Assembly (NCBI GenBank): GCA_014654035.1
Contig: JACWDQ010000001.1
Coordinates: 1-64,000 of the forward strand
Direction of reading: 5' to 3'
DNA length: 64,000 nucleotides
Source: Pelagibacterales bacterium SAG-MED19
GTDB lineage: Bacteria > Pseudomonadota > Alphaproteobacteria > Pelagibacterales > Pelagibacteraceae
Shown: positions 39,331-59,735 of the stretch, piece by piece
How the letters are laid out: each line of letters starts with the position of its first letter
Position numbering within the stretch: position 1 is the stretch's first letter
Made by a program: the position numbers and the translations under genes
The notes under the pieces: generated by a model
The model's input: the letters and a program-made list of their open reading frames with translations, nothing else
What the model was told of the DNA's origin: nothing
Databases searched by the model: none

Positions 39331-39648
39331 TTATTGTCCAGGTGCTTTATAACCAATTTTACTTGCTTTCATTGTTGCCTTTGTAAAATCAATTGCTTCT
39401 AATATAGTTAAATTTTTTACTGCACCCGACGACTCTACAACTAATTTAATTGCCGCAAAATCCTCGAAACTTGGTACATCAGTAACAACTATAAAGTCAT
39501 AAGAACCTCTGACTATATCCATACTATGCATCGTACCACCCATAGCTTTTGTAAGTTGTTCAACAACAGCTTTTCTATCACTTGTAGGATCTTTCAAAAA
39601 TCCTTGAAAAGCTTTTTCAGTATAATTACCCATTATATATGCTTTCAT
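39331..39648 (-). CDS. GYD-domain protein
   Basis: 105 residues matching the GYD family: MKAYIMGNYTEKAFQGF start, GGTMHSMDIVRGSYDFIVVTD middle (G-x-YD signature) and an AIKLVVESSGAV helix. It has a ferredoxin-like fold, similar in size to the small stress or monooxygenase-like proteins. Function unknown. Good ribosome binding site (AAGGAG) upstream of the ATG and its own terminator make it a single-gene unit, probably well expressed. Confidence 0.88.
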   Translation of the reverse strand: MKAYIMGNYTEKAFQGFLKDPTSDRKAVVEQLTKAMGGTMHSMDIVRGSYDFIVVTDVPSFEDFAAIKLVVESSGAVKNLTILEAIDFTKATMKASKIGYKAPGQ

Positions 39649-43664: not shown

Positions 43665-44471
43665 GTGTCAAAATTAAAATCATCCAATTATAAAGTTTAT
43701 TCAAAATTTATTGAAAATTTAGCTAAAAAGTTAACTCAATTTTATTACTTAAAATTAAATAAACCATTTAAACTTTCAAACAAACTTAAAGGTAAGGGTT
43801 ATGACCCTGTAACTAGTGCTGATAAAGCATTTGAAAAATTTATAAGAAAAGAAATTAAAAAAAAATTTCCTAATCATCAAATAATAGGAGAAGAATTTGG
43901 GCATCAAAAATCTAAAAGTGATTTTAAATGGGTTTTAGATCCAATCGATGGAACTAGATCTTTTGTGATTGGTAATCCATCTTGGAGTAATTTAATTTCA
44001 CTTAATTACAAAGATGAACCAATTTTGGGGCTTGCAAATTTTCCAATTTTAAAAAAATATTATTTTAACACATCGGATAAGAGCGCTTATGTTTCAGAAA
44101 ATGGCAAGAAAAAAAAAATTAAAGTTAGTAAAAATTCTTCTTTTAAAAATTTAAAGGTCTCAGGTGCTTTCCATGGAAGTATCTCATTAAAAAAACAAAA
44201 AAAAATTACAAAAATTCTTAAGTTAATGCAATTTCCATGCACTGATGCTTTGAGCTATTCTCATTTTGCAGAAGGAAAATTAGATGTTGTCATTCAAGCA
44301 GTAAATAAGATTTGGGATATTAATCCTCTAATTCCAATTATAAAAGCTGCTGGAGGACATGTTACTACATGGAAAAATAAAAGTGCTGTACAAGGGGGAA
44401 ATATTTTAGTTACAACAAATAAAAAAACTCACAATAGATTTATTAAACTTCTTAAACCTGCGACTATGTAG
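43665..44471 (+). CDS. Inositol-monophosphatase-family phosphatase (HisN-type)
   Basis: 268 residues with a GTG start. FIG/IMPase metal motifs are PVTSADKAFEKFIR, IIGEEFGHQKS (metal Glu), WVLDPIDGTRSFVIGNPSWSN (DPIDGT, about residue 91) and WDINPLIPIIKAAGGHV (WD motif, about residue 210). The RSFVIGNP variant is typical of histidinol-phosphate phosphatase HisN as opposed to SuhB. Substrate assignment is moderate. Lys-rich in the central beta sheet. Confidence 0.85.
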   Translation: MSKLKSSNYKVYSKFIENLAKKLTQFYYLKLNKPFKLSNKLKGKGYDPVTSADKAFEKFIRKEIKKKFPNHQIIGEEFGHQKSKSDFKWVLDPIDGTRSFVIGNPSWSNLISLNYKDEPILGLANFPILKKYYFNTSDKSAYVSENGKKKKIKVSKNSSFKNLKVSGAFHGSISLKKQKKITKILKLMQFPCTDALSYSHFAEGKLDVVIQAVNKIWDINPLIPIIKAAGGHVTTWKNKSAVQGGNILVTTNKKTHNRFIKLLKPATM

Positions 44472-44799
44472 TTTTACCAAGAGAATTTAGTAAAATTACT
44501 CCAATTATTATTAAAGCTATTCCAATTATTCCATAAATGTTTGGCATTTGATTGTATTTAATTAGACCAAATACAGCTATAGCAGTTATTGTTAAACCTC
44601 CATAAGTAGCATATGTAAAACCAACTGGTATTACTGACATTGCTTTTGAAAGTGAGAACATGCAAATACACATTAAGAATAGGCATGCAACTGTAGGCGT
44701 TAACTTTGAAAATCCATCTGAGATCTTAGCAAAACTGTTTGCGCTAATTCCAGTTAAAATACCAAGTCCTAAAAACATATACCCTGAAAAAACACTCAT
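44464..44799 (-). CDS. SMR-family-like small membrane protein lacking the catalytic glutamate
   Basis: 111 residues, four hydrophobic helices with the small multidrug resistance fold: SISDGF-like FAKISDGFSKLTP, a SLSKAMSVIPVGFTYATYGG segment matching the family PVGxAYAxWxG, and a C-terminal GIIGIALIIIGVILLN. The membrane Glu14 found in essentially all EmrE-type transporters (AEVIGT) is replaced here (TGISAN). Proton-driven drug efflux is therefore doubtful, and a different substrate or a structural role is possible. Last gene of the eight-gene small-protein cluster; it overlaps convergent HisN by eight bases. Confidence 0.75.
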   Translation of the reverse strand: MSVFSGYMFLGLGILTGISANSFAKISDGFSKLTPTVACLFLMCICMFSLSKAMSVIPVGFTYATYGGLTITAIAVFGLIKYNQMPNIYGIIGIALIIIGVILLNSLGKTT

Positions 44800-44826: not shown

Positions 44827-45036
44827 TTATCTACAAACTTTTTTTGCAATTGGACCAACCAATAATGCTACTGTAATTGCTATTGGAAGTCCTACTGCCC
44901 AAGCTTTTAAGAATCTATTTAGATAACCATTGTCTAATCCAGTATTGACATAAGTAATAATTAAAGTCATTAGCAAGCTCATACCAAATCCCATTATTAA
45001 TATAAATAAAAAATTAGAGTATTTTTTTGGAAACAT
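44827..45036 (-). CDS. DUF2798 small membrane protein
   Basis: 69 residues, two membrane helices (about residues 9-29 and 44-63), with FLKAWAVGLPIAITVALLVGPIAKK matching DUF2798. The family is widespread and uncharacterised. It belongs to the tight minus-strand cluster of small proteins, 18 bases after the NTF2-like gene. Confidence 0.8.
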   Translation of the reverse strand: MFPKKYSNFLFILIMGFGMSLLMTLIITYVNTGLDNGYLNRFLKAWAVGLPIAITVALLVGPIAKKVCR

Positions 45037-46422: not shown

Positions 46423-46800
46423 TTAATATATTCCTGACTCTGCTATTTTTTTTATTTCATCTTTAGAACCAGAAATTAATTTAAAGATAAATTCATCACA
46501 TTTTTTTGTTGTTTCTTCTTCATATGGTTTACCGTAACGAATATCGACAACTTTTAATAACTCTTCGTTAAGTTTTTCTTCCTTAACACCTTCTTTTAAT
46601 AGATAAGAATTTAAAAATTTTTTAGCTGCGAAAGAGTGTACAATCTTTTCTAATTCAAGCTCTCCCTGGGGTATCATGCTATTAGCATAGTAAATTCCAG
46701 TACATTCGATTGTTTTAGATCTATCGCTATCACTCATTCCAGCAAAAGCAATCAGTGGGAAAATAACAATAGATAAAGTTAAAATAATTTTTTTAATCAT
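46423..46800 (-). CDS. Secreted small protein with conserved cysteine pair, paralogue 2
   Basis: 125 residues. Signal peptide MIKKIILTLSIVIFPLIAFA cleaved about residue 20. The mature part is mostly helical with cysteines at 33 and 101, a GIYYANSMIPQGELE segment and a KVVDIRYGKPY segment. It aligns along its length with the product of the adjacent upstream gene, with Cys-to-Cys spacing of 68 versus 69 residues. Probably periplasmic with one disulfide (inference). No known family recognised. Four bases separate the two genes. Confidence 0.75.
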   Translation of the reverse strand: MIKKIILTLSIVIFPLIAFAGMSDSDRSKTIECTGIYYANSMIPQGELELEKIVHSFAAKKFLNSYLLKEGVKEEKLNEELLKVVDIRYGKPYEEETTKKCDEFIFKLISGSKDEIKKIAESGIY

Positions 46801-46804
46801 TTTT

Positions 46805-47194
46805 TTAATATAAAGTTTGAATTACTTTTTTGACTCTTTCAGCCCCATTAGGAACTAAAGTTTCTACAAATGAATGACATTGATCAGTTTTAGCCTTGTC
46901 ATATTTTGAACCATAATGTTTATCTACTGCCTTATTAACTCCTTCATCCCAGTCTTTTTCTGGAATACCTATTTCTAAGGCATATGCTTTAAGAACTTTT
47001 ACAGTTGATATAGATTTTTCTTTCATACTGTACTCAAATGTTTCACCAGAGGGAAGAAAGTAGTTAGCCATATAAATACCAACACAATCCCAAGCTTTTG
47101 CTTTATCACTATTATTCATTTCAGCACTTGATGAAGTTGATATTGAAATTGCCACACAGTAAGTAGCAAGTATTTTTAAAATATTTTTTAGCAT
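46805..47194 (-). CDS. Secreted small protein with conserved cysteine pair, paralogue 1
   Basis: 129 residues. Signal peptide MLKNILKILATYCVAISIST with a likely cleavage near residue 24. Cysteines at 37 (WDCVGIYMANYFLPSGE) and 106 (DQCHSFVETL) match the pair in the neighbouring gene, and the DKHYGSKYDKAKT segment aligns with its RYGKPYEEETT. First gene of the eight-gene cluster. The ribosome binding site is contained in a repeated CGGAGATC element. Function unknown; helical, probably periplasmic. Confidence 0.75.
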   Translation of the reverse strand: MLKNILKILATYCVAISISTSSSAEMNNSDKAKAWDCVGIYMANYFLPSGETFEYSMKEKSISTVKVLKAYALEIGIPEKDWDEGVNKAVDKHYGSKYDKAKTDQCHSFVETLVPNGAERVKKVIQTLY

Positions 47195-47196
47195 AT

Positions 47197-47227
47197 GATC
47201 TCCGTATCCGCTTAATAAAGATCTCCG
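47197..47227 (-). repeat. Direct repeat CGGAGATC in the leader of the small-protein operon
   Basis: On the minus strand CGGAGATC occurs twice (47220-47227 and 47197-47204), 23 bases apart. The second copy overlaps the ribosome binding site, and each copy is near a GCGGA sequence. It is the only GC-richer stretch of this leader. It could bind a regulator or act as a decoy ribosome binding site. The AT-rich rest of 47195-47264 must hold the promoter, which I cannot place. Confidence 0.35.
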
Positions 47228-47264
47228 CTAATCTTTATTTATTTTAAGTTTAAATAAATATATT

Positions 47265-47288
47265 AAAAAAAAGTAACAGTTTTGTTAC
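47265..47288 (-). terminator. Intrinsic terminator of cysK
   Basis: On the minus strand GTAACA-AAAC-TGTTAC (six-base stem, four-base loop) is followed directly by eight Ts. It lies 17 bases beyond the cysK stop. It separates the cysE-cysK unit from the downstream small-protein operon, which therefore needs its own promoter. Confidence 0.72.
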
Positions 47289-47305
47289 ATAGCAGCTATG
47301 CGATA

Positions 47306-48307
47306 TTATAGCCAATTAGGGATAGGTAGTTTTTTTTCTTGTAAAAATGATTTGTTAAACATCTTAGAGTTGTATTTATCAGACTTGTCGCAGAGAATAG
47401 TGATAATAGTTTTTCCTGGACCTAACTCTTTTCCAAGTCTAATTGCTCCTGCAATATTTATTCCACAACTTGTACCTAAGCTTAAACCTTCATTTTGAAT
47501 TAAATCATAAAGAATAGGTAGAGCTTCATGATCATCGATTGAGAAAGCACCATCAATTTTAGCATTTTCAAAATTTTTAGTAATTCTACTAGAGCCAATT
47601 CCTTCAGTAATTGAATTTCCCTCAGATTTTAATTCACCATTTTTAATATAATTGTAAAGAGCAGAACCTTTCGGATCAGATAAATAGATCTTTATATCTT
47701 TATTCTTTTCTTTAAGAGCATTACTAACTCCTGAAATAGTTCCACCTGTTCCTGATGAACAAACAAAGCCGTCAACCTTACCTTCAGTTTGATCCCAAAT
47801 TTCTTTTCCAGTTCCCTCATAATGACCTTTTGCATTTGCAATGTTATCAAATTGATTAGCCCAAATAACTCCATTGTTGTTAATAGGCCTTAACTCATCT
47901 GCTAGTCTTGCTGCAACTTTAACAAAATTGTTGTTATCTTTATAAGGTTTTGCTGGAACTAATCTTAATTCTGCTCCTAAATTTCGTAAAGTATCTTTCT
48001 TTTCTTGAGTTTGATTATCGTTCATTACTATGATTGTTTTATAACCAAGCGAATTTCCTAAAAGTCCTAATCCAATACCAGTGTTACCAGCTGTACCTTC
48101 AACAACAATACCACCTTTAGAAATCAACTTTTTTTCTTGAGCATCTTTTATTAATGCTAATGCAGCTCGATCTTTAACAGAACCACCTGGATTTAAAAAT
48201 TCTGCCTTACCATAGATATTACATCCAGTGAGTTCCGAAGCTGCCTTAAGTTTTATTAGAGGAGTGTTGCCAATTGACTCGATAAAATTATTTTTTATAT
48301 CCTTCAT
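47306..48307 (-). CDS. cysK: Cysteine synthase (PLP-dependent beta-substitution enzyme)
   Basis: 333 residues. PLP lysine region is NPGGSVKDRAALALI (Lys about residue 43), then GTAGNTGIGLGLLGNSLGYK, the phosphate loop CSSGTGGTISGV, and the LSLGTSCGINIAGA block. Fold type II; O-acetylserine sulfhydrylase or a close cystathionine-beta-synthase-like paralogue. It makes cysteine from O-acetylserine and sulfide. Overlaps cysE by one base, the classical pair. A sulfide source must come from elsewhere in an organism thought to lack sulfate assimilation. Confidence 0.9.
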   Translation of the reverse strand: MKDIKNNFIESIGNTPLIKLKAASELTGCNIYGKAEFLNPGGSVKDRAALALIKDAQEKKLISKGGIVVEGTAGNTGIGLGLLGNSLGYKTIIVMNDNQTQEKKDTLRNLGAELRLVPAKPYKDNNNFVKVAARLADELRPINNNGVIWANQFDNIANAKGHYEGTGKEIWDQTEGKVDGFVCSSGTGGTISGVSNALKEKNKDIKIYLSDPKGSALYNYIKNGELKSEGNSITEGIGSSRITKNFENAKIDGAFSIDDHEALPILYDLIQNEGLSLGTSCGINIAGAIRLGKELGPGKTIITILCDKSDKYNSKMFNKSFLQEKKLPIPNWL

Positions 48308-51369: not shown

Positions 51370-52281
51370 TCAATCTAAAGCAACTACAGCAGCAGCAATT
51401 GAAGCCAATCTAGCTTGTGCTTCATCAGAACGACTTGTTATAACAACTGGAACTTTGCCACCTACAACAACACCTGCAGCACATGCTCCAGAAAAATATA
51501 TCAGCATCTTTACTAAACCATTACCTGTTTCAACACTTGGTACCAATAAAACATCTGCTATTCCAGCTACATCATTTTTAATACCTTTAATAGCAGCAGA
51601 TTTCTTTGAAATACTATTGTCAAAAGCTAGTGGGCCAAATACGTCTGCATTTAAATTTTCTTTTTTTGCAAGTTTAGTTAACTCCTCTGCATCTTTTGAA
51701 CTTGGAACACTATCTAAAACCTCTTCAGTTGCTGAAAGAATAGCTATTTTAGGTCTTTCAATACCAATTCTATTTGAAAAATTAATAACATTTTTTAAGA
51801 TATGCATTTTCGTTTTTACATTAGGTAAAACATTTAAAGCACCATCAGTTATAATTAATGGTTTATCCTCTTTATCGACAGTCATGTGCCAAATATGACT
51901 TAATCGAGTTTTTCCTAATAAATCATATTCTCTTTTTAGAACCTCTTTCATAAGAACATCAGTGTGAATATGACCTTTTACTATGATTTTGATTTTTTTT
52001 TCACTTGCCAATTTAGCTGCGATAGCCGCAGTATTATTTTCCACAGGTTCATGAATAATTTCAAATTTTGAAATATCCCATTTTAAATCTTCTGCACATT
52101 TTAATATTTCTTTTTCATCACCAATAAAAATTGGTTCAATCAAATTTTCATTAACTGCATCTTGAACAGAAAGCATTGGCAATGGTTTACCAGCGTTTAC
52201 AATTCCAGCTTTCACTCCCTTTTTTTTATGAGCCACATTTAATAAATTAACTGGGCAAACTATTTCTTTATTTGAAAGCAT
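51370..52281 (-). CDS. Phosphate acetyl/butyryltransferase family protein
   Basis: 303 residues matching the catalytic domain of phosphate acyltransferases: VKAGIVNAGKPLPMLSVQDAV, IIVKGHIHTDVLMKEVL, LSHIWHMTV, DGALNVLPNVKTKMHIL, ISKKSAAIKGI (family KSA), and PSVETGNGLVKML followed by the GGKVPVVITSRSDEAQARL C-terminus. It interconverts an acyl phosphate and acyl-CoA. In sulfonate metabolism Xsc produces acetyl phosphate, which this enzyme would turn into acetyl-CoA; xsc is not in the window. Similar proteins also occur as partners in polyhydroxyalkanoate or butanoate metabolism. Confidence 0.87.
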   Translation of the reverse strand: MLSNKEIVCPVNLLNVAHKKKGVKAGIVNAGKPLPMLSVQDAVNENLIEPIFIGDEKEILKCAEDLKWDISKFEIIHEPVENNTAAIAAKLASEKKIKIIVKGHIHTDVLMKEVLKREYDLLGKTRLSHIWHMTVDKEDKPLIITDGALNVLPNVKTKMHILKNVINFSNRIGIERPKIAILSATEEVLDSVPSSKDAEELTKLAKKENLNADVFGPLAFDNSISKKSAAIKGIKNDVAGIADVLLVPSVETGNGLVKMLIYFSGACAAGVVVGGKVPVVITSRSDEAQARLASIAAAVVALD

Positions 52282-52285
52282 AAGA

Positions 52286-53306
52286 TTAATTTTTAAGAAT
52301 TTTTAAATCTTTTTTGATTATTTCTGAAATATTTATTTCTTTTTTTGAATTCATTTTAAATCTTTTATACTTATTTTGACCAGGATACATTATTTCTTTA
52401 ATTCCTTTTATTCTAGGTAATCTTTTAATTGTTTTAATATTATCTTTAATTCTATTATTAAAATTATTTACAAACAAATTTGTTTTAAATGTGATAAACA
52501 AATGACCAATATTTTGTGGGCCTGAAAAATCGTCAAAAGGATCTTTAACCTTACCAGCATGGTTTCCACCAGTTAGTACTCCACTTAAAATATCAACCAT
52601 CCAAGCCAATCCAGATCCTCTAAATCCAGCAATAGGTAATTGAACACCTTCTAATGCTTTTTTCGCATTTGTAGTGGGTTTACCAAATTTGTCTAAAGCA
52701 ACACCTTCAGGAATTTTTTGATTACTTCTGGCAGCTACTCTTATTTTTCCTCTATTGATCATAGAAATTGAGGTATCTAAAATAAAAGGAACTTTAGATC
52801 CTGTCGGTGTTCCAAAACAGATAGGGTTTGTTCCAAACAAACTTTTAAGTGCACCATGAGGTGCTACAGCTGGAGGAGCATTTGTATAAATCATCGTTAT
52901 CAAATTTTTTTTGACCGCTTGTTCAGCATAATAACCTGAAAGACCATAGTGACCACTATTTTTAACAGCAACCATTCCAATACCAGTTTTTTTTTGCATT
53001 ATGAATAGCTTTTTTAATAGCAATATCAGCGGCAACAAAACCAATGCTATTGTTTGCATCGACATGAGAAATAGAAGGAGAAATTTTTTTAATTCTAATT
53101 TTAGGTTTTGGATTAATGACTTTTTTATTAATTCGATCACAGTACATTTTTAATCTTGATAGACCATGACCATAGGCTCCAACTAATTCAGCATTAATTA
53201 AAGCGTTAGCAGAGATTAAAGCATGATTATTACTTAAACCAAACTTTTTAAAGATATTAATAATTTCCTTCTTAAGAATGCTTGTTTTCAATTTAACCTT
53301 TTCCAC
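52286..53306 (-). pseudogene. Malate/L-lactate/sulfolactate dehydrogenase (Ldh_2 family), frameshifted in an A9 run
   Basis: The frame from ATG 53306 carries the N-terminal half (LVGAYGHGLSRLKMYCDRI, VDANNSIGFVAADIAI) and breaks after AIHNAKK at nine As (T9 at 52987-52995 on the + strand). The rest continues in the next frame: TGIGMVAVKNSGHYGLSG with the catalytic His, TNAPPAVAPHG, PFILDTSISMINRGKI and GFRGSGLAWMVDIL. Removing one A restores about 340 residues. The family includes SlcC/ComC sulfolactate dehydrogenases, fitting the locus. Overlaps the tauC-like stop by 14 bases. May be a broken gene, a sequencing indel, or rescued by polymerase slippage on A9. Confidence 0.85.
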
Positions 53307-55218
53307 GCCATGGAATATATTTGTCTATAAGTTTTCTTAAAGTAACATCGAATAAAAGACCTAACATTCCCATAATAAATATAGTGATCCAAATGACTTC
53401 GTATTGAAAATATTTTTTAGCAACGTTTTCAACAAATCCAATTCCAGTCGTACCAGCTAAAAATTCAGCAGCAACCAAGGTTCCCCAGCACATACCAACT
53501 GCTACTCTAATACCAGTTAAAATTTCTGGTAATGAGTTTGGAAAAATTACATATCTAAGTATTTGTTTTTTAGATGCACCTAATGAGTGAGCAGCATGAA
53601 TTTTTGAAAGCTGTGTTCCAGAAGCACCAGCCCTTGCTGAAATTATCATAATTGAAAGTGAAACCATAAACAATAAGAATACTTTTCCAGTGTTATCAAT
53701 ACCTAATACTGAAATAATTAATGGTGCCCAAGCTAAAGGAGGAACCGGTCTATAGAGCTCGATTAAAGGATCAAAAAAACCTTTAGCAAATCTATTTAAT
53801 CCCATGAATAATCCTAATGGAACACCTATAATGATTCCAAAAACTAATCCTAAGAAAACCCTCATAAAAGAGTCCCAGATATGTCCATAAGGAACTGGTA
53901 CTTTTAATAATTTAAAATCACCAGTTACAATTTTAAGAACTGCACCCTTAAAGTTTTGTTTTACAACTCCATCTTTAGTATGAACAGGATATTCACCTGG
54001 TAAAATGTCAGCAATAAAATCAGGTAAAATAAAACCAACCACACCACTTATATCAACCATTTTTATCCATAGAAGAGGAATATCTTTATAGCCTACACTT
54101 GGTTTTGACATTAAAATGAATTTATTTAAAGTATCTGACGGTTTTGGAAGCCATCTTCCAGAACCTTGCTCTGAACAACTTGGTCCACTTGCAACAATTG
54201 TTCCAGCAGGAAATAAAAAAATATCAATAAACCTTAATCCACCTTGGATTTGTATTTGTGCATTATCAAATTTAACAATAGCATTTTGCATTTTATCTAA
54301 TGCATTTGGTGGATAGATACTTGCAAACTCTATTCTTCTTGCAATTTTAACAATATTCTTAGCATAAGTAGAAGCCACTTCTTCACTATCACTTAGTTCT
54401 TTTCTATAAGCTTTAACATTATCTTTAATTTCTTTAATTTTGTTTTTAAATTGTGGATTATGGTTACGTAATTTAAAAAATTCTTCACTAATTAAATTTA
54501 ACTCTTGAGCAGCAGCATGAAATTTTAGACCTCTGTCTGTTGCAGGAATCAAAGGCACCTCTATTGTATTTTCTATAGATCCTGATCCTGAATTAACTTT
54601 TGTAATACCCCAACTACCTTCTTCATTTACTGCTTTAAGTCTTTCATTAAGTTCTTGTTCAGTTTCAAATGGGTAGTCTGGCTTTTGAAAATTTTCAGTT
54701 AATAGGTTGATTTTTCCTGTAATATTATCTATTTGCTGTCTAGTCTCACTTTCAAGTAAGTCTTCATTAGTTAGTAATGGTATTAATTGATTAGTTTTAT
54801 TTATAAAACCAACAAGAATAGTTTTTTGTTGATTATTAAGTTCAGTAGAATTTTGTATTTCATCTAAAATAAGAGAGAGATTTTTATTCTCTTGTTTGAT
54901 TTGAGAGGTGCTTTTTAACTCTCTTTCTTCTATAGGAAATTGATATTTCAATCCCAATAATGAGTCATTAACTTTGGCTACTTGGCAAAGTTCATTAGCA
55001 GATTTAGGATAAAATCCCTTTGCAATATCCCAAGAATAATAAAGCCAAACTAAAAGAATAAAACTACTTCCAACAATGATCCAATGAGTGCCACCTAATG
55101 CTCTTTCTGGATTTCCAAAAACTGCATCAACTTTTTCAGTTCTTATCAATCTTCTTCCATAGAGAATACAGCCAATAACAGCCACAAATATTAAGAAAGT
55201 TATTATTTGAGTTAACAT
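53293..55218 (-). CDS. TauC-like ABC transporter permease with a large N-terminal extension
   Basis: 641 residues, more than twice the length of classical TauC (about 275). Two helices (about 3-21 and 46-64) flank a start with GNPERALGGTHW. A soluble, helix-rich region to about residue 390 follows, including coiled-coil-like Gln/Asn/Glu stretches. Then comes a normal binding-protein-dependent permease domain (about 435-641) with LYRPVPPLAWAPLIISVLG and the EAA-like loop HAAHSLGASKKQILRYVIFP. Role: inner-membrane channel of a taurine/sulfonate-type importer. Starts next to tauB. Confidence 0.9.
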   Translation of the reverse strand: MLTQIITFLIFVAVIGCILYGRRLIRTEKVDAVFGNPERALGGTHWIIVGSSFILLVWLYYSWDIAKGFYPKSANELCQVAKVNDSLLGLKYQFPIEERELKSTSQIKQENKNLSLILDEIQNSTELNNQQKTILVGFINKTNQLIPLLTNEDLLESETRQQIDNITGKINLLTENFQKPDYPFETEQELNERLKAVNEEGSWGITKVNSGSGSIENTIEVPLIPATDRGLKFHAAAQELNLISEEFFKLRNHNPQFKNKIKEIKDNVKAYRKELSDSEEVASTYAKNIVKIARRIEFASIYPPNALDKMQNAIVKFDNAQIQIQGGLRFIDIFLFPAGTIVASGPSCSEQGSGRWLPKPSDTLNKFILMSKPSVGYKDIPLLWIKMVDISGVVGFILPDFIADILPGEYPVHTKDGVVKQNFKGAVLKIVTGDFKLLKVPVPYGHIWDSFMRVFLGLVFGIIIGVPLGLFMGLNRFAKGFFDPLIELYRPVPPLAWAPLIISVLGIDNTGKVFLLFMVSLSIMIISARAGASGTQLSKIHAAHSLGASKKQILRYVIFPNSLPEILTGIRVAVGMCWGTLVAAEFLAGTTGIGFVENVAKKYFQYEVIWITIFIMGMLGLLFDVTLRKLIDKYIPWRGKG

Positions 55219-56016
55219 TTAGATATCTTTCCCCATTATTTCTTCTTCCATATTCCAAATCATTTCTAATATTTCTTCTCGTTTTGCTGAAAAATCTTTA
55301 TTTTTTTTAATTTCTCTTAAGTCTTCTTTTAATCCCATCGAAGCAAATGGGAGATTGTATTCTTTATGTATACGACCTGGTCGAGGAGCCATTACATATA
55401 ATCTTTCTCCAAGTAATAACGCCTCTTCAACTGAGTGAGTAATTAAAATAATTGTTTTTCCAGTTTCTTTCCATATTTTTAAAACTAAGGACTGCATTTT
55501 TTCTCTTGTTAAAGCATCAAGAGCTCCCAAAGGCTCATCCATTAAAATTAAATCTGGATCGTTAATTAGACATCTTGCTAAAGCAACTCTTTGCTGCATC
55601 CCTCCAGACAATTGATAAGTTGGGGTATTTCCGAAACCTTTTAACCCAACGATATTTAACCATTCATCAACTTTTTTTGATGTTTTAATTGGATCTTCTT
55701 TTTTCATTCTTAATCCAAAATTGACATTTTCTGATACAGTTAACCATTCGAACAACGCTCCTTGTTGAAAAACCATTCCTCTTTCAACACCAGGTCCATC
55801 AATTTCATTATTATTTAATGTGATAGTTCCAGAAGTTGGTCTAATAAATCCTGCAGTAATATTTAATAAAGTTGTCTTACCACATCCTGATGGTCCAAGA
55901 ACTGTTAAGAGCTCTCCTTTTTTAAGTGTAAAATTAACATCTTTTAACGCATGAACTGTTTCTCCTTTTGGAGTTTTAAAAACCATATTTAGATTTTGAG
56001 AAATAAGATCACTCAT
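55219..56016 (-). CDS. TauB-like ABC transporter ATP-binding protein
   Basis: 265 residues. Walker A GPSGCGKTT (about residue 40), Q-loop MVFQQGALFEWLTV, signature LSGGMQQRVALARCL (about residue 139), Walker B LILMDEPLGALDALTREKM, switch His in LITHSVEEALLLGERL. The sequence corresponds to TauB/SsuB/NrtD nitrate-sulfonate-taurine ATPases. Energises import with the neighbouring permease and binding protein. Starts after a transcription-attenuating hairpin downstream of tauA. Confidence 0.94.
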   Translation of the reverse strand: MSDLISQNLNMVFKTPKGETVHALKDVNFTLKKGELLTVLGPSGCGKTTLLNITAGFIRPTSGTITLNNNEIDGPGVERGMVFQQGALFEWLTVSENVNFGLRMKKEDPIKTSKKVDEWLNIVGLKGFGNTPTYQLSGGMQQRVALARCLINDPDLILMDEPLGALDALTREKMQSLVLKIWKETGKTIILITHSVEEALLLGERLYVMAPRPGRIHKEYNLPFASMGLKEDLREIKKNKDFSAKREEILEMIWNMEEEIMGKDI

Positions 56017-56047
56017 AAATAATTTTATAATAAAATTTAATTAAAAA

Positions 56048-56080
56048 AATAGGCACCAATTTATTCAATTGGCGCCTATT
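56048..56080 (-). terminator. Terminator-like hairpin between tauA-like and tauB-like genes
   Basis: On the minus strand AATAGGCGCCAATT and AATTGGTGCCTATT form a 14-base stem with a single G-U pair and a five-base loop, followed by a run of Ts. It sits 23 bases after the binding-protein gene and 32 bases before the next start. Partial read-through would give more binding protein than transporter, as is common in ABC operons. Confidence 0.8.
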
Positions 56081-56102
56081 AAATTTTTCTTTCTCTATAA
56101 AA

Positions 56103-57044
56103 TTATAGAGGTAAGAAACTAGTGTCTACGTTTCCTCTTGGTGTTCCCATTCCTTTTAAGAACGCATCAAGATTTCCGCTTTTCATAGATTTTTCAGTTT
56201 CTTCTGGAGTTAGAAATTTAAAGCCACTTAAAGTTTCTTTCATATCTCCAACTTTCATTTCAGAAGCTTTAGCCATTACATTCATATTGCTTTTACCAGC
56301 TTTGTATCTAGCATTAGCTTCATGAGTAACTTCTATAAAAGTTCTAAGCATTCCTGGATTTTCCTTCATAAACTTTGTAGTTACTGAAGTAATATCTATT
56401 CCTAAAATACCAGCAGCTCTTGCTTCATCAACAGTAAGTAATCTTGAACCTACAGCAGTTGCAGCTTTAATAGAGTTACCTCCAAACAAACATGCCATTA
56501 CAACATCACCACTTACCAATGCAGCAGCTCCTTCTTCAGGGTCCATTTGAATAATATCCATTTTACCTCTGTCTGCTCCAACAACTTTCATACTTTCATC
56601 GAAAACATACTCAGCCATTGTTCCTAGTGGAACAGCAACTTTTTTACCTTCTAATTCAGTAGCATTTGCTTTTGTAATTCCAGAAGCGTTAGAAGTAACA
56701 CAAGTTGTTCCTCCCATTCCGTATTCCATAGCAATATCAACTAATTTAATTGGTGCCTTAGATTTTACAGCATTTATAAATGGTACTAATCCTTGTGAGT
56801 AAGAAATATCAATATCTCCTGCTAACATAGCATCAGTCATTGCTCCACCATTAGTGAAGTTTGTCCATTTTACTGGAACTCCAAGCGCTTTAGCGAATGC
56901 TTTTTTCTGCATATCTTCTAAGTTTGGACTTGGCCATTCTAGAAAGTATGCAACTCTAACTTCTTTAGCAGCTGAATTTGCAACTGAAACAGATAAGTTT
57001 AGGGCTACAAGTGCTCCTAGAATAAAACTAATTATTTTTCTCAT
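56103..57044 (-). CDS. TauA-like periplasmic substrate-binding protein
   Basis: 313 residues. Signal peptide MRKIISFILGALVALNLSVS, cleavage near the ANSAAK site. The NMT1/TauA fold begins VRVAYFLEWPSP, with WTNFTNGGAMTDAMLAGDIDI, GKKVAVPLGTMAEYVFDE and ITSVTTKFMKENPGML. It binds a sulfonate-type ligand such as taurine in the periplasm; specificity unproven. First gene of the minus-strand operon, with a GAGAGGAT ribosome binding site. Abundant binding proteins of this type are a hallmark of SAR11. Confidence 0.92.
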   Translation of the reverse strand: MRKIISFILGALVALNLSVSVANSAAKEVRVAYFLEWPSPNLEDMQKKAFAKALGVPVKWTNFTNGGAMTDAMLAGDIDISYSQGLVPFINAVKSKAPIKLVDIAMEYGMGGTTCVTSNASGITKANATELEGKKVAVPLGTMAEYVFDESMKVVGADRGKMDIIQMDPEEGAAALVSGDVVMACLFGGNSIKAATAVGSRLLTVDEARAAGILGIDITSVTTKFMKENPGMLRTFIEVTHEANARYKAGKSNMNVMAKASEMKVGDMKETLSGFKFLTPEETEKSMKSGNLDAFLKGMGTPRGNVDTSFLPL

Positions 57045-57117
57045 TTTTATCCTCTCATTAATTAATTAAATTAGTCCTATTAAAATTCAATTTTAGGAGG
57101 ATGTAAAACAAATAAAG

Positions 57118-57136
57118 ATACAATTATAAGTTGTAT
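57118..57136. promoter_or_regulatory. Inverted repeat between the divergent tauA-like and aminotransferase genes
   Basis: ATACAA-TTATAAG-TTGTAT has perfect six-base arms with a seven-base centre, near the middle of the 193-base divergent intergenic region 57045-57237. It is a candidate operator for a regulator controlling both arms of the sulfonate-type locus. The rest of the region is AT-rich with no other structure I can support. No regulator gene is in the immediate neighbourhood. Confidence 0.3.
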
Positions 57137-57237
57137 TATTGCAATGTTCATTCTGAGGTCAAAATAATCCTTTTAAACAAATAAATTTAGTCTAAGAATT
57201 TTATTAATAATTAATTAACAAATTTAAAAAAATTAAC

Positions 57238-58584
57238 ATGAGCTCAGAAAACAGAACTACTGTACCAAATTCATTAAATGAACATTGGATGCCATTTACA
57301 TCTAATAAAGATTTTAAAGCAAACCCAAGATTAATAACAGAGGCAAAGGGTGTTTACTTAAAGACCCATCATGGGAAAACTCAGATTGATGCAAGTTCAG
57401 GATTATTTTGTAATCCATTAGGTCATGGTAGAAGAGAAATTACAGAAGCTGTTTCCAAACAATTGGAGACTTTAGATTATGCTCAACCTTTTCAACAAGG
57501 TTTCGGAGGTTCCTTTGAATTAGCTACAAAAATTTCAAAGCATACTCCTGGAGATTTAAACAAAATGTTTTTTACAATTTGTGGTTCAACAGCTGTGGAG
57601 ACCGCAATTAAAATTGCAGTAGCTTACCATCGTGCAAAAGGTGATGCTCAAAGATTTAGATTTGTTGGTCGTGAGAGGGGCTATCACGGAATGAATATAG
57701 GATGTGTTTCAGTTGGAGGAATGGTTAATAATGTAAAAACATTTGCTAGTATTTTAATGCCTGGGGTTCAACATATTAGACACACTCATTTACCAGAACA
57801 TAAATTTGTGAGTGGTCAACCTGAAACAGGTGATTATTTGGCAAATGATTTGGAGACTATTTGTCAAAACTTTGGTGGTGAAAATATAGCAGCTTGTATA
57901 GTTGAGCCAATTGCAGGATCAACTGGAACCCTAGTTCCACCAAAAGGATATTTACAAAAATTAAGAGAAATTTGTGACAAACACGGAATACTTTTAATTT
58001 TCGATGAAGTAATCACTGGATGGGGAAGAACAGGATCAAAATTTGGTGCTCATGAATTTGGTGTAACACCTGATATTATGACAATGGCTAAGGCAACAAC
58101 TAATGGAGTTGTACCCATGGGTGTTGTTGCATGTAACGACTCTATTTATGACGCTGTAATGGATGCTTCTCCAAAAGGAGCCGTAGAATTATTTCATGGA
58201 TACACTTATTCAGGAATTCCAGTTGCTGTTGCAGCGGCGTTAGCTGTTCAAGATATTTTTGAAAAAGATGATATTTTTAATAGAGCAAAAAATTTAGCTC
58301 CTTACTTTCAAAAAGGTTTGTTTTCTCTTCAAGATTTAGAGTCTGTAGATAACATAAGAGGTTATGGAATGATGGGTGGAATCGATATGAAATTAAATAC
58401 TAAACCTGGAAAAGCTGGTTATGAAACTTTTAAAGCTTGTTATGAAGCAGGTGTTAACTTCAAAGCAACAGGAGACTGTTTAATAATTGCTCCACAGTTT
58501 ATTTGTGAAGAAAAACATATTGATGAGATTATTGATAAACTTAGAACAGGTATCACTAACTATCAAAAAAACCAAAAAAACTAG
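57238..58584 (+). CDS. Omega-amino-acid:pyruvate aminotransferase (taurine/beta-alanine type)
   Basis: 448 residues, class III PLP aminotransferase. Marks: EHWMPFTSNKDFK start, GLFCNPLGHGRREI, ERGYHGMNIG, VEPIAGSTGTLVPPKGYL, LLIFDEVITGWGRTG, and the PLP lysine in DIMTMAKATTNGVVPMG (about residue 286). Taurine:pyruvate (Tpa) and beta-alanine:pyruvate aminotransferases share these features. The adjacent alanine dehydrogenase and divergent tau-like importer favour the taurine role, giving sulfoacetaldehyde plus alanine (inference). Confidence 0.9.
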   Translation: MSSENRTTVPNSLNEHWMPFTSNKDFKANPRLITEAKGVYLKTHHGKTQIDASSGLFCNPLGHGRREITEAVSKQLETLDYAQPFQQGFGGSFELATKISKHTPGDLNKMFFTICGSTAVETAIKIAVAYHRAKGDAQRFRFVGRERGYHGMNIGCVSVGGMVNNVKTFASILMPGVQHIRHTHLPEHKFVSGQPETGDYLANDLETICQNFGGENIAACIVEPIAGSTGTLVPPKGYLQKLREICDKHGILLIFDEVITGWGRTGSKFGAHEFGVTPDIMTMAKATTNGVVPMGVVACNDSIYDAVMDASPKGAVELFHGYTYSGIPVAVAAALAVQDIFEKDDIFNRAKNLAPYFQKGLFSLQDLESVDNIRGYGMMGGIDMKLNTKPGKAGYETFKACYEAGVNFKATGDCLIIAPQFICEEKHIDEIIDKLRTGITNYQKNQKN

Positions 58585-58622
58585 TTAATTTATAATTTAT
58601 AAATAACACATAGAGAGTAATA

Positions 58623-59735
58623 ATGCGGATAGGCGTACCTAAAGAAATAAAACCACAGGAAAACAGAATAGGTTTAACTCCAGATAGTGTAAAAACTCTT
58701 ATATCAGAAGGCCATGAAGTTTTAATTGAAAATAATGGTGGATTTGAAGCTGGATTTGAAAATGATCAATATACAGAAGCTGGTGCAAAGATTGTTAATA
58801 AAGCATCTGATATTTTTAATGACTCAGAAATAATAGTAAAAGTAAAAGAGCCACAAAAAGTTGAAGTAGACATGATTAGAGAAAATCAAATTGTCTATAC
58901 TTATCTGCATTTAGCCGCTGCAAAAGAACTTACTGAAGGATTAATTAAATCTAAAAGTATTAATATAGCTTACGAAACTGTAACAGATAATAATGGAAGA
59001 CTTCCTTTGCTTGCACCAATGAGTGCTGTTGCAGGTCGTATGTCAGTCCAAGCTGGAGCACATTGCTTAGAAAAAAATCAAAAAGGTAGAGGAGTTTTAT
59101 TAGGAGGAGCACCAGGAGGCGAGCCTGCAAATGTATTAATTCTTGGAGGTGGAGTAGTAGGGGAGAATGCGGCAGTGATAGCAACCGGTATGCAAGCAAA
59201 AGTTCATATCGTTGATAAATCTGAAGCAAGATTAAAACAATTAGTGCAAATGTTTGGAGATAAAATAATTCCAGAACAAAGTGACAAAATAGATCTAAAC
59301 AAATTAGTTGCAGAAACAGATTTATTAATTGGTGGTGTTTTGATCCCTGGAGCAGAAGCTCCAAAATTGGTAACTAAAAATATGCTGAAGTTAATGAAAA
59401 GAGGTTCTGTCATTGTTGATGTAGCTATTGATCAAGGAGGATGTGTTGAAACCAGCAAACCAACAACTCATGGGGATCCAACATATATTGTTGATGATGT
59501 TGTACATTACTGTGTTGCAAATATGCCTGGAGGAGTACCAAGAACATCTACTTTTGCATTAAACCAAGCAACACTTCCTTATTTAGTTAAACTAGCAAAC
59601 AAAGGTTATCAAAAAGCTTTAGGAGAAGATAAAAATTTTTTAGCAGGACTTAATGTTTGCAAAGGACAAGTAACATACAAAGCTGTAGCAGATGTCTTTG
59701 GCCATGAGTTTGCTGACCCTAAATCAGTACTTTAA
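58623..59735 (+). CDS. ald: Alanine dehydrogenase
   Basis: 370 residues. Marks are [27 protein letters not shown] with catalytic lysine, [12 protein letters not shown] with the catalytic His, the Rossmann loop [14 protein letters not shown], and [20 protein letters not shown] at the C-terminus. It deaminates alanine to pyruvate with NAD. Next to the aminotransferase it would regenerate pyruvate and release ammonium, the standard Tpa-Ald cycle of taurine degradation. AGAGAG ribosome binding site. Overlaps convergent epimerase by four bases. Confidence 0.95.

Follow-up and report, generated by a model that had tools for sequence, protein, structure and literature searches.

The adjacent genes A and B, encoded in the window (the whole 64,000-nucleotide stretch of DNA analysed here), belong to an orphan, uncharacterised family of small exported proteins with a clear anatomy, which within the samples searched is restricted to SAR11. 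In our main reading, to which we give a probability of roughly 0.4, the two proteins would be helical, stapled by a disulfide and placed in the periplasm, with a binding or chaperone-like part in a chemical-stress cassette, as their structural models and operon partners suggest. Few bacterial groups of the ocean are as abundant as SAR11, whose genome is streamlined. A family which in such a lineage is under purifying selection, is carried by about half of the near-complete genomes and is absent elsewhere in the samples should have a real use. There is nothing strange in the anatomy of these proteins, and their weight comes from the SAR11 lineage: a conserved yet swappable operon offers a concrete place to study how these bacteria handle chemical stress without many regulators.

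The gene pair and its subfamilies

The genome that contains the window is that of a SAR11 bacterium (Pelagibacteraceae) and comprises 1.01 Mb in 50 contigs. A first-pass annotation had described A and B as a tandem of secreted paralogues that align end to end, with cysteines 68 and 69 residues apart, and in these points it was right. Both open reading frames are found on the minus strand at the expected places (Table 1), with a gap of 4 bp between the stop codon of A and the start of B. Signal peptides were predicted by eye, with cleavage sites at SSA|EM in A and AFA|GM in B, which would leave mature proteins of 105 residues in both cases; the cysteines then occupy mature positions 13 and 82 in A (spacing 69) and 13 and 81 in B (spacing 68). 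BLASTP aligned the two proteins significantly over 102 residues (E 1e-20) with 34 identities (33%), 56% positives and 1 gap, and the motif string of the annotation is present in both. Across all comparisons of the window genes with their relatives pN/pS lay between 0.05 and 0.38, so that A and B are under purifying selection; values this far below 1, together with the invariant cysteine pair, mark them as real genes that have been kept.

Table 1. Genes and upstream elements of the A and B locus (positions in the window)
Feature	Position	Strand	Remarks
cysK	47306..48307	-	upstream flank in the main genus; outside the family
Conserved block TATCGCATAGCTGC-TATGTAACAAAACTGTTACTTTTTTTT	47265..47305	-	directly after the cysK stop; inverted repeat, then T
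Hairpin AATAAAGAT-TAGCGGAG-ATCTTTATT	47214..47239	-	leader of A; also in L062 and L073
Gene A, exported, 129 aa	46805..47194	-	subfamily A; precursor Cys37 and Cys106
Gene B, exported, 125 aa	46423..46800	-	subfamily B; precursor Cys33 and Cys101
Cytoplasmic small protein, 94 aa	46121..46405	-	without Pfam match; dimeric alpha/beta-barrel-like by eye only
Cytoplasmic small protein, 96 aa	45823..46113	-	weak SCO4226-like match, below cut-off
Predicted membrane protein, 138 aa	45392..45808	-	about four segments by eye; recurs beside the family in both genera
SnoaL-like protein, 106 aa	45055..45375	-	below Pfam cut-off
DUF2798 membrane protein	44827..45036	-	PF11391, E 2.4e-19
SMR-type small multidrug transporter	44464..44799	-	cassette end; PF00893, E 1.3e-16

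Of 147 genomes of the Pelagibacteraceae, 61 had A-like proteins by the A query and 60 had matches to the B query. A family profile built from a 29-row alignment matched 140 of the 297 genomes of an order-level sample, and 75 of 150 in its near-complete subset. Across the 385 genomes of a class-level sample, the sole matches were three Pelagibacteraceae genomes that carry the family. Besides the window's own genome, a profile search at the level of the phylum gave only partial chance matches (E 0.01-1), and 2.9 million viral contigs, scanned twice, contained no relative. No family match was obtained in Pfam or NCBIfam above the curated cut-off, or in PHROGs at a significant E-value, nor did a sequence search of the PDB with the single proteins and the profile give a match; scans of 29 members against Pfam and of 48 members with PADLOC revealed no immunity or defence family. 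The sub-threshold names that did appear (DUF1514, DUF4999, RTE1, DUF6588 and similar) are mutually unrelated. The earlier remark that no described family could be recognised is thus borne out by profile and single-protein searches, which placed neither A nor B in a characterised family.

Exactly two cysteines are present in 133 of 136 distinct core sequences. Two of the exceptions carry a third cysteine within the signal peptide, so the mature pair is unaffected, while the last is a frameshift-truncated open reading frame whose first cysteine is still encoded by the missing part. Both cysteines are invariant across all aligned members, the full set of invariant columns being C, G, K, D, G and C, and Tyr residues are near-invariant in the family. 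A D-type second copy (L133:8394-8787) is frameshifted just past the start codon, within a run of A; both cysteines are retained in the remaining reading frame.

A tree of 52 representatives contains a tight A group, a B and a C group and, as single sequences of greater divergence, D and E. Long branches part A from B and C, and the deepest branches are likewise long, with weak support at some forks. A, B, C, D and E are ancient branches of one family, and the divergence of A and B is older than the genera. The B protein of the window shares up to 93% identity with B proteins of other genomes but only 33% with the A that adjoins it. A single member is found in 120 of the 140 family-positive genomes of the order-level sample and two members in 20, the pairs being composed of A-B, C-A (G027), C-B (G110) or A-D (G140); B without A occurs in G017 and G078, and A without B is common. 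The high identity of B across genomes, the prevalence of single members and the mixed pairs argue that the subfamilies are older than the locus and became co-located by gain and loss. The local duplication, kept and diverged, that had been assumed for the pair is unsupported as stated, given the split of A from B and C in the tree, the 93% identity of B elsewhere and the varying pairs. The A proteins of a second genus are 79-82% identical to the A of the window while some A proteins of the window's own genus reach only 62-71%, and the hisD-like flanking protein is 70% identical between the second genus and the window. In the tree, moreover, the second-genus A proteins are nested inside those of the main genus. 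An A that is closer between genera than this flanking protein, and nested, points to exchange between genera and to a pair in which old subfamilies were joined rather than one produced by recent local duplication.

A variable cassette and its upstream elements

In 84 of 100 loci the family member opens its same-strand run. Main-genus loci have the order cysE, cysK, A, (B), variable small genes and SMR, with an IMPase and a TauD/GBBH-type gene on the other side. In 89 same-strand runs of this genus SnoaL was present in 76, the 96-aa protein in 71, the 94-aa protein in 68, and the SMR transporter, the 138-aa membrane protein and DUF2798 in 67 each. Other modules are DUF1330, a protein of DSBA type, a TPR protein, a weak cupin and further small exported proteins; one more exported protein, 158 aa long and with no match in Pfam (cluster 31), also recurs in the cassette (L067:8406-8882 and 20 loci). 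In the second genus the family occupies a different site, where it is preceded either by a TRAP transporter, a hisD-like gene and an alcohol dehydrogenase or by some other gene. Of 10 loci there, 7 each contain GYD, DUF1330 and the 138-aa membrane protein that is also seen in the main genus, and 6 contain an ABM-like protein. The biochemical roles of these operon partners are read from domain labels, several of them below cut-off. The cassette is variable. That a partly shared gene set is found at two sites argues for a functional link between the family and the cassette; in the main genus taken alone, the operon link could be partly positional. Our search of the published literature found no description of the cassette.

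Two further regions of the window may be mentioned here. A GYD-like protein of 105 aa, recognised by eye, is encoded at 39331-39648, outside the cassette, while the GYD genes of the second genus lie inside it. A region of taurine/sulfonate type (51370-59735) contains phosphate-acyltransferase-like and sulfolactate-dehydrogenase-like genes, ABC transporter genes (641-aa permease, ATPase and binding protein) and class III aminotransferase-like and alanine-dehydrogenase-like genes, the last ones named by eye only. Its sulfolactate-dehydrogenase-like open reading frame (52286-53140) has 284 aa against 339 in relatives, with the N-terminal part out of frame, so that either the genome has a frameshift here or the assembly is in error.

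The block of about 40 bases that follows cysK is kept in many main-genus loci (upstream of A in L084, L098, L116, L135 and L139) and reads TATCGCATACCAGC-N-ATGTAACAAAACNGTTACATTTTT in relatives. From its sequence and position it is possibly a terminator of cysK or an operator; a scan for consensus terminators flagged nothing, this block included, and shuffled sequences had more promoter-like sites than the real one. The whole leader of A folds weakly better than shuffles (z -1.64), and with a z of just this size we do not claim a riboswitch in it; Rfam gave nothing in the 42-52 kb part of the window. In the second genus the family is preceded by TTGTAGACANNNTGCATACC, which in seven of the genomes searched (G018, G027, G052, G075, G110, G128 and G144) occurs exactly once without mismatch, each time just upstream of a family member. 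We considered this sequence as the signal of a regulon. Since its exact copies are confined to the vicinity of the family and near-matches are at control level, it is rather a local element.

Predicted structure and candidate roles

AlphaFold2 models of both proteins are confident and all-helical, with mean pLDDT values of 87.1 for A and 89.5 for B. The signal peptide is the weak part, and the helical part reaches about 89-98 in A and 93-99 in B. Four to five mature helices follow each other in identical order in A and B, the first cysteine belonging to mature helix 1 and the second to helix 4, an arrangement that fits one stapling disulfide. With two invariant cysteines in an exported protein, a single intramolecular disulfide is plausible, and a periplasmic location of A and B is predicted. 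The best Foldseek matches in the PDB had E-values of 0.5 for A and 1.1 for B, and none of the fold searches (A and B against the PDB, B against BFVD) gave anything at E <= 0.001. The VIA-align lists for A and B have scores at the level typical of unrelated helical bundles; neither with Foldseek nor with VIA-align does a fold match to the two models back a binding or chaperone role.

By sequence, A and B represent two subfamilies of one SAR11-restricted, Sec-exported family; we propose that each member forms a helical bundle of about 105 residues, probably closed in the periplasm by a single stapling disulfide. The proteins would be non-enzymatic, most likely small periplasmic binding or holdase-type proteins that act alone or as homo-oligomers. 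Co-located members would be additive and not an obligate pair, the subfamilies being swapped among genomes as cassette modules. Their partners would be membrane proteins, the SMR exporter and small cytoplasmic proteins of the alpha/beta-barrel, SnoaL and cupin types, and the modular operon, to judge from its content, may handle small reactive or foreign compounds. A bolder and quite tentative extension would see in the family the exported arm, sensing or scavenging, of a chemical-stress island of SAR11 that is undescribed and shuffled horizontally. In this island SMR pumps, helical exported proteins and small alpha/beta-barrel enzymes that can replace one another would be combined as modules against reactive seawater compounds.

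A closer kinship in function with the HdeA/HdeB-like periplasmic chaperones, a tandem helical pair with one disulfide each that unfolds or dissociates under stress and holds client proteins, seems doubtful. The general anatomy is the same: E. coli HdeA (89 aa, Cys18-Cys66) and HdeB (79 aa, Cys10-Cys58) are paired, helical and exported (PMC9657021). Like these adjoining paralogues (PF06411), A and B are small exported helical proteins with one cysteine pair, here predicted to form a disulfide, but they have 105 residues and a cysteine spacing of 69 and 68, not 48. Moreover, none of 29 members matched Pfam HdeA at E 0.1, and hhalign gave a probability of 0.5% against E. coli HdeA. HdeA is not among the fold matches listed, which excludes nothing. 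In most genomes there is a single member, the SAR11 gene neighbourhood is unlike the acid-resistance island and the open ocean is not expected to bring acid stress. HdeA/HdeB is the best known analogue in anatomy and, by the tests run, not a relative.

It is unlikely that the proteins are organosulfur accessory factors, that is, periplasmic binders or stabilisers tied to cysteine synthesis and the use of taurine or sulfonates. This idea draws on the fact that almost every main-genus locus has the family downstream of cysE-cysK, on the sulfolactate-dehydrogenase-like, phosphate-acyltransferase-like and taurine-type ABC transporter genes beyond the cassette and on the TRAP transporter and hisD-like gene that the family follows in the second genus. 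In that genus, however, cysK is not beside the family, and the genes common to both sites (GYD, DUF1330, ABM and the membrane protein) are none of them sulfur-related. In addition, neither cysK nor cysE of Ca. Pelagibacter ubique responded to sulfur limitation (PMC5069961).

Tai4/Rap1a-type immunity proteins, which act in the periplasm against toxins delivered by competitors, are likewise small, exported and helical, and the two cysteines, several branches, patchy presence and inter-genome exchange of the SAR11 family would suit such a role; a Tai4 chain (4j30) appears at rank 36 of the fold search with B. Yet its Foldseek E-value of 4.2 is at chance level, Pfam and PADLOC found no such match, and no gene for a toxin effector adjoins A and B. 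The family is also under strong purifying selection instead of showing arms-race change, and we regard this role as very improbable.

An obligate heterodimer of A and B that arose from a recent local duplication is less likely still. Their similar length and fold would allow it, and two genes just 4 bp apart should be transcribed together, with translation probably coupled as well, but the distribution of the family largely refutes it, since only 20 of the 140 positive genomes have two members and the composition of the pairs varies. The idea of a heterodimer, raised as a question in the first-pass annotation, is further weakened by the many genomes in which A or B stands alone, and the split of A and B predates the genera.

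A ferritin/Dps-like four-helix metal or redox protein is barely credible. Such proteins do fill the VIA list for B and resemble its bundle shape (best Z 7.5, 3.6 A, 93 residues), but a Z of this size is what the tool gives for helical bundles that are unrelated. The invariant columns C, G, K, D, G and C include neither a conserved His nor a ligand set of EXXH type, and the SAR11 proteins differ in being exported and having a cysteine pair. The type II secretion pilotin GspS (3sol, 3utk), also a small helical periplasmic protein, is the top VIA match for A, with a Z of 5.1 (3.6 A over 81 residues) that is at background, and 3utk matched the A model with a Foldseek E of 3.1. A and B differ from GspS in that they show no sequence match to it, have no secretin gene nearby and lack a lipobox before the cysteine; by eye, their signals are of the SPase I type (AFA|G, and ANA|E in relatives).
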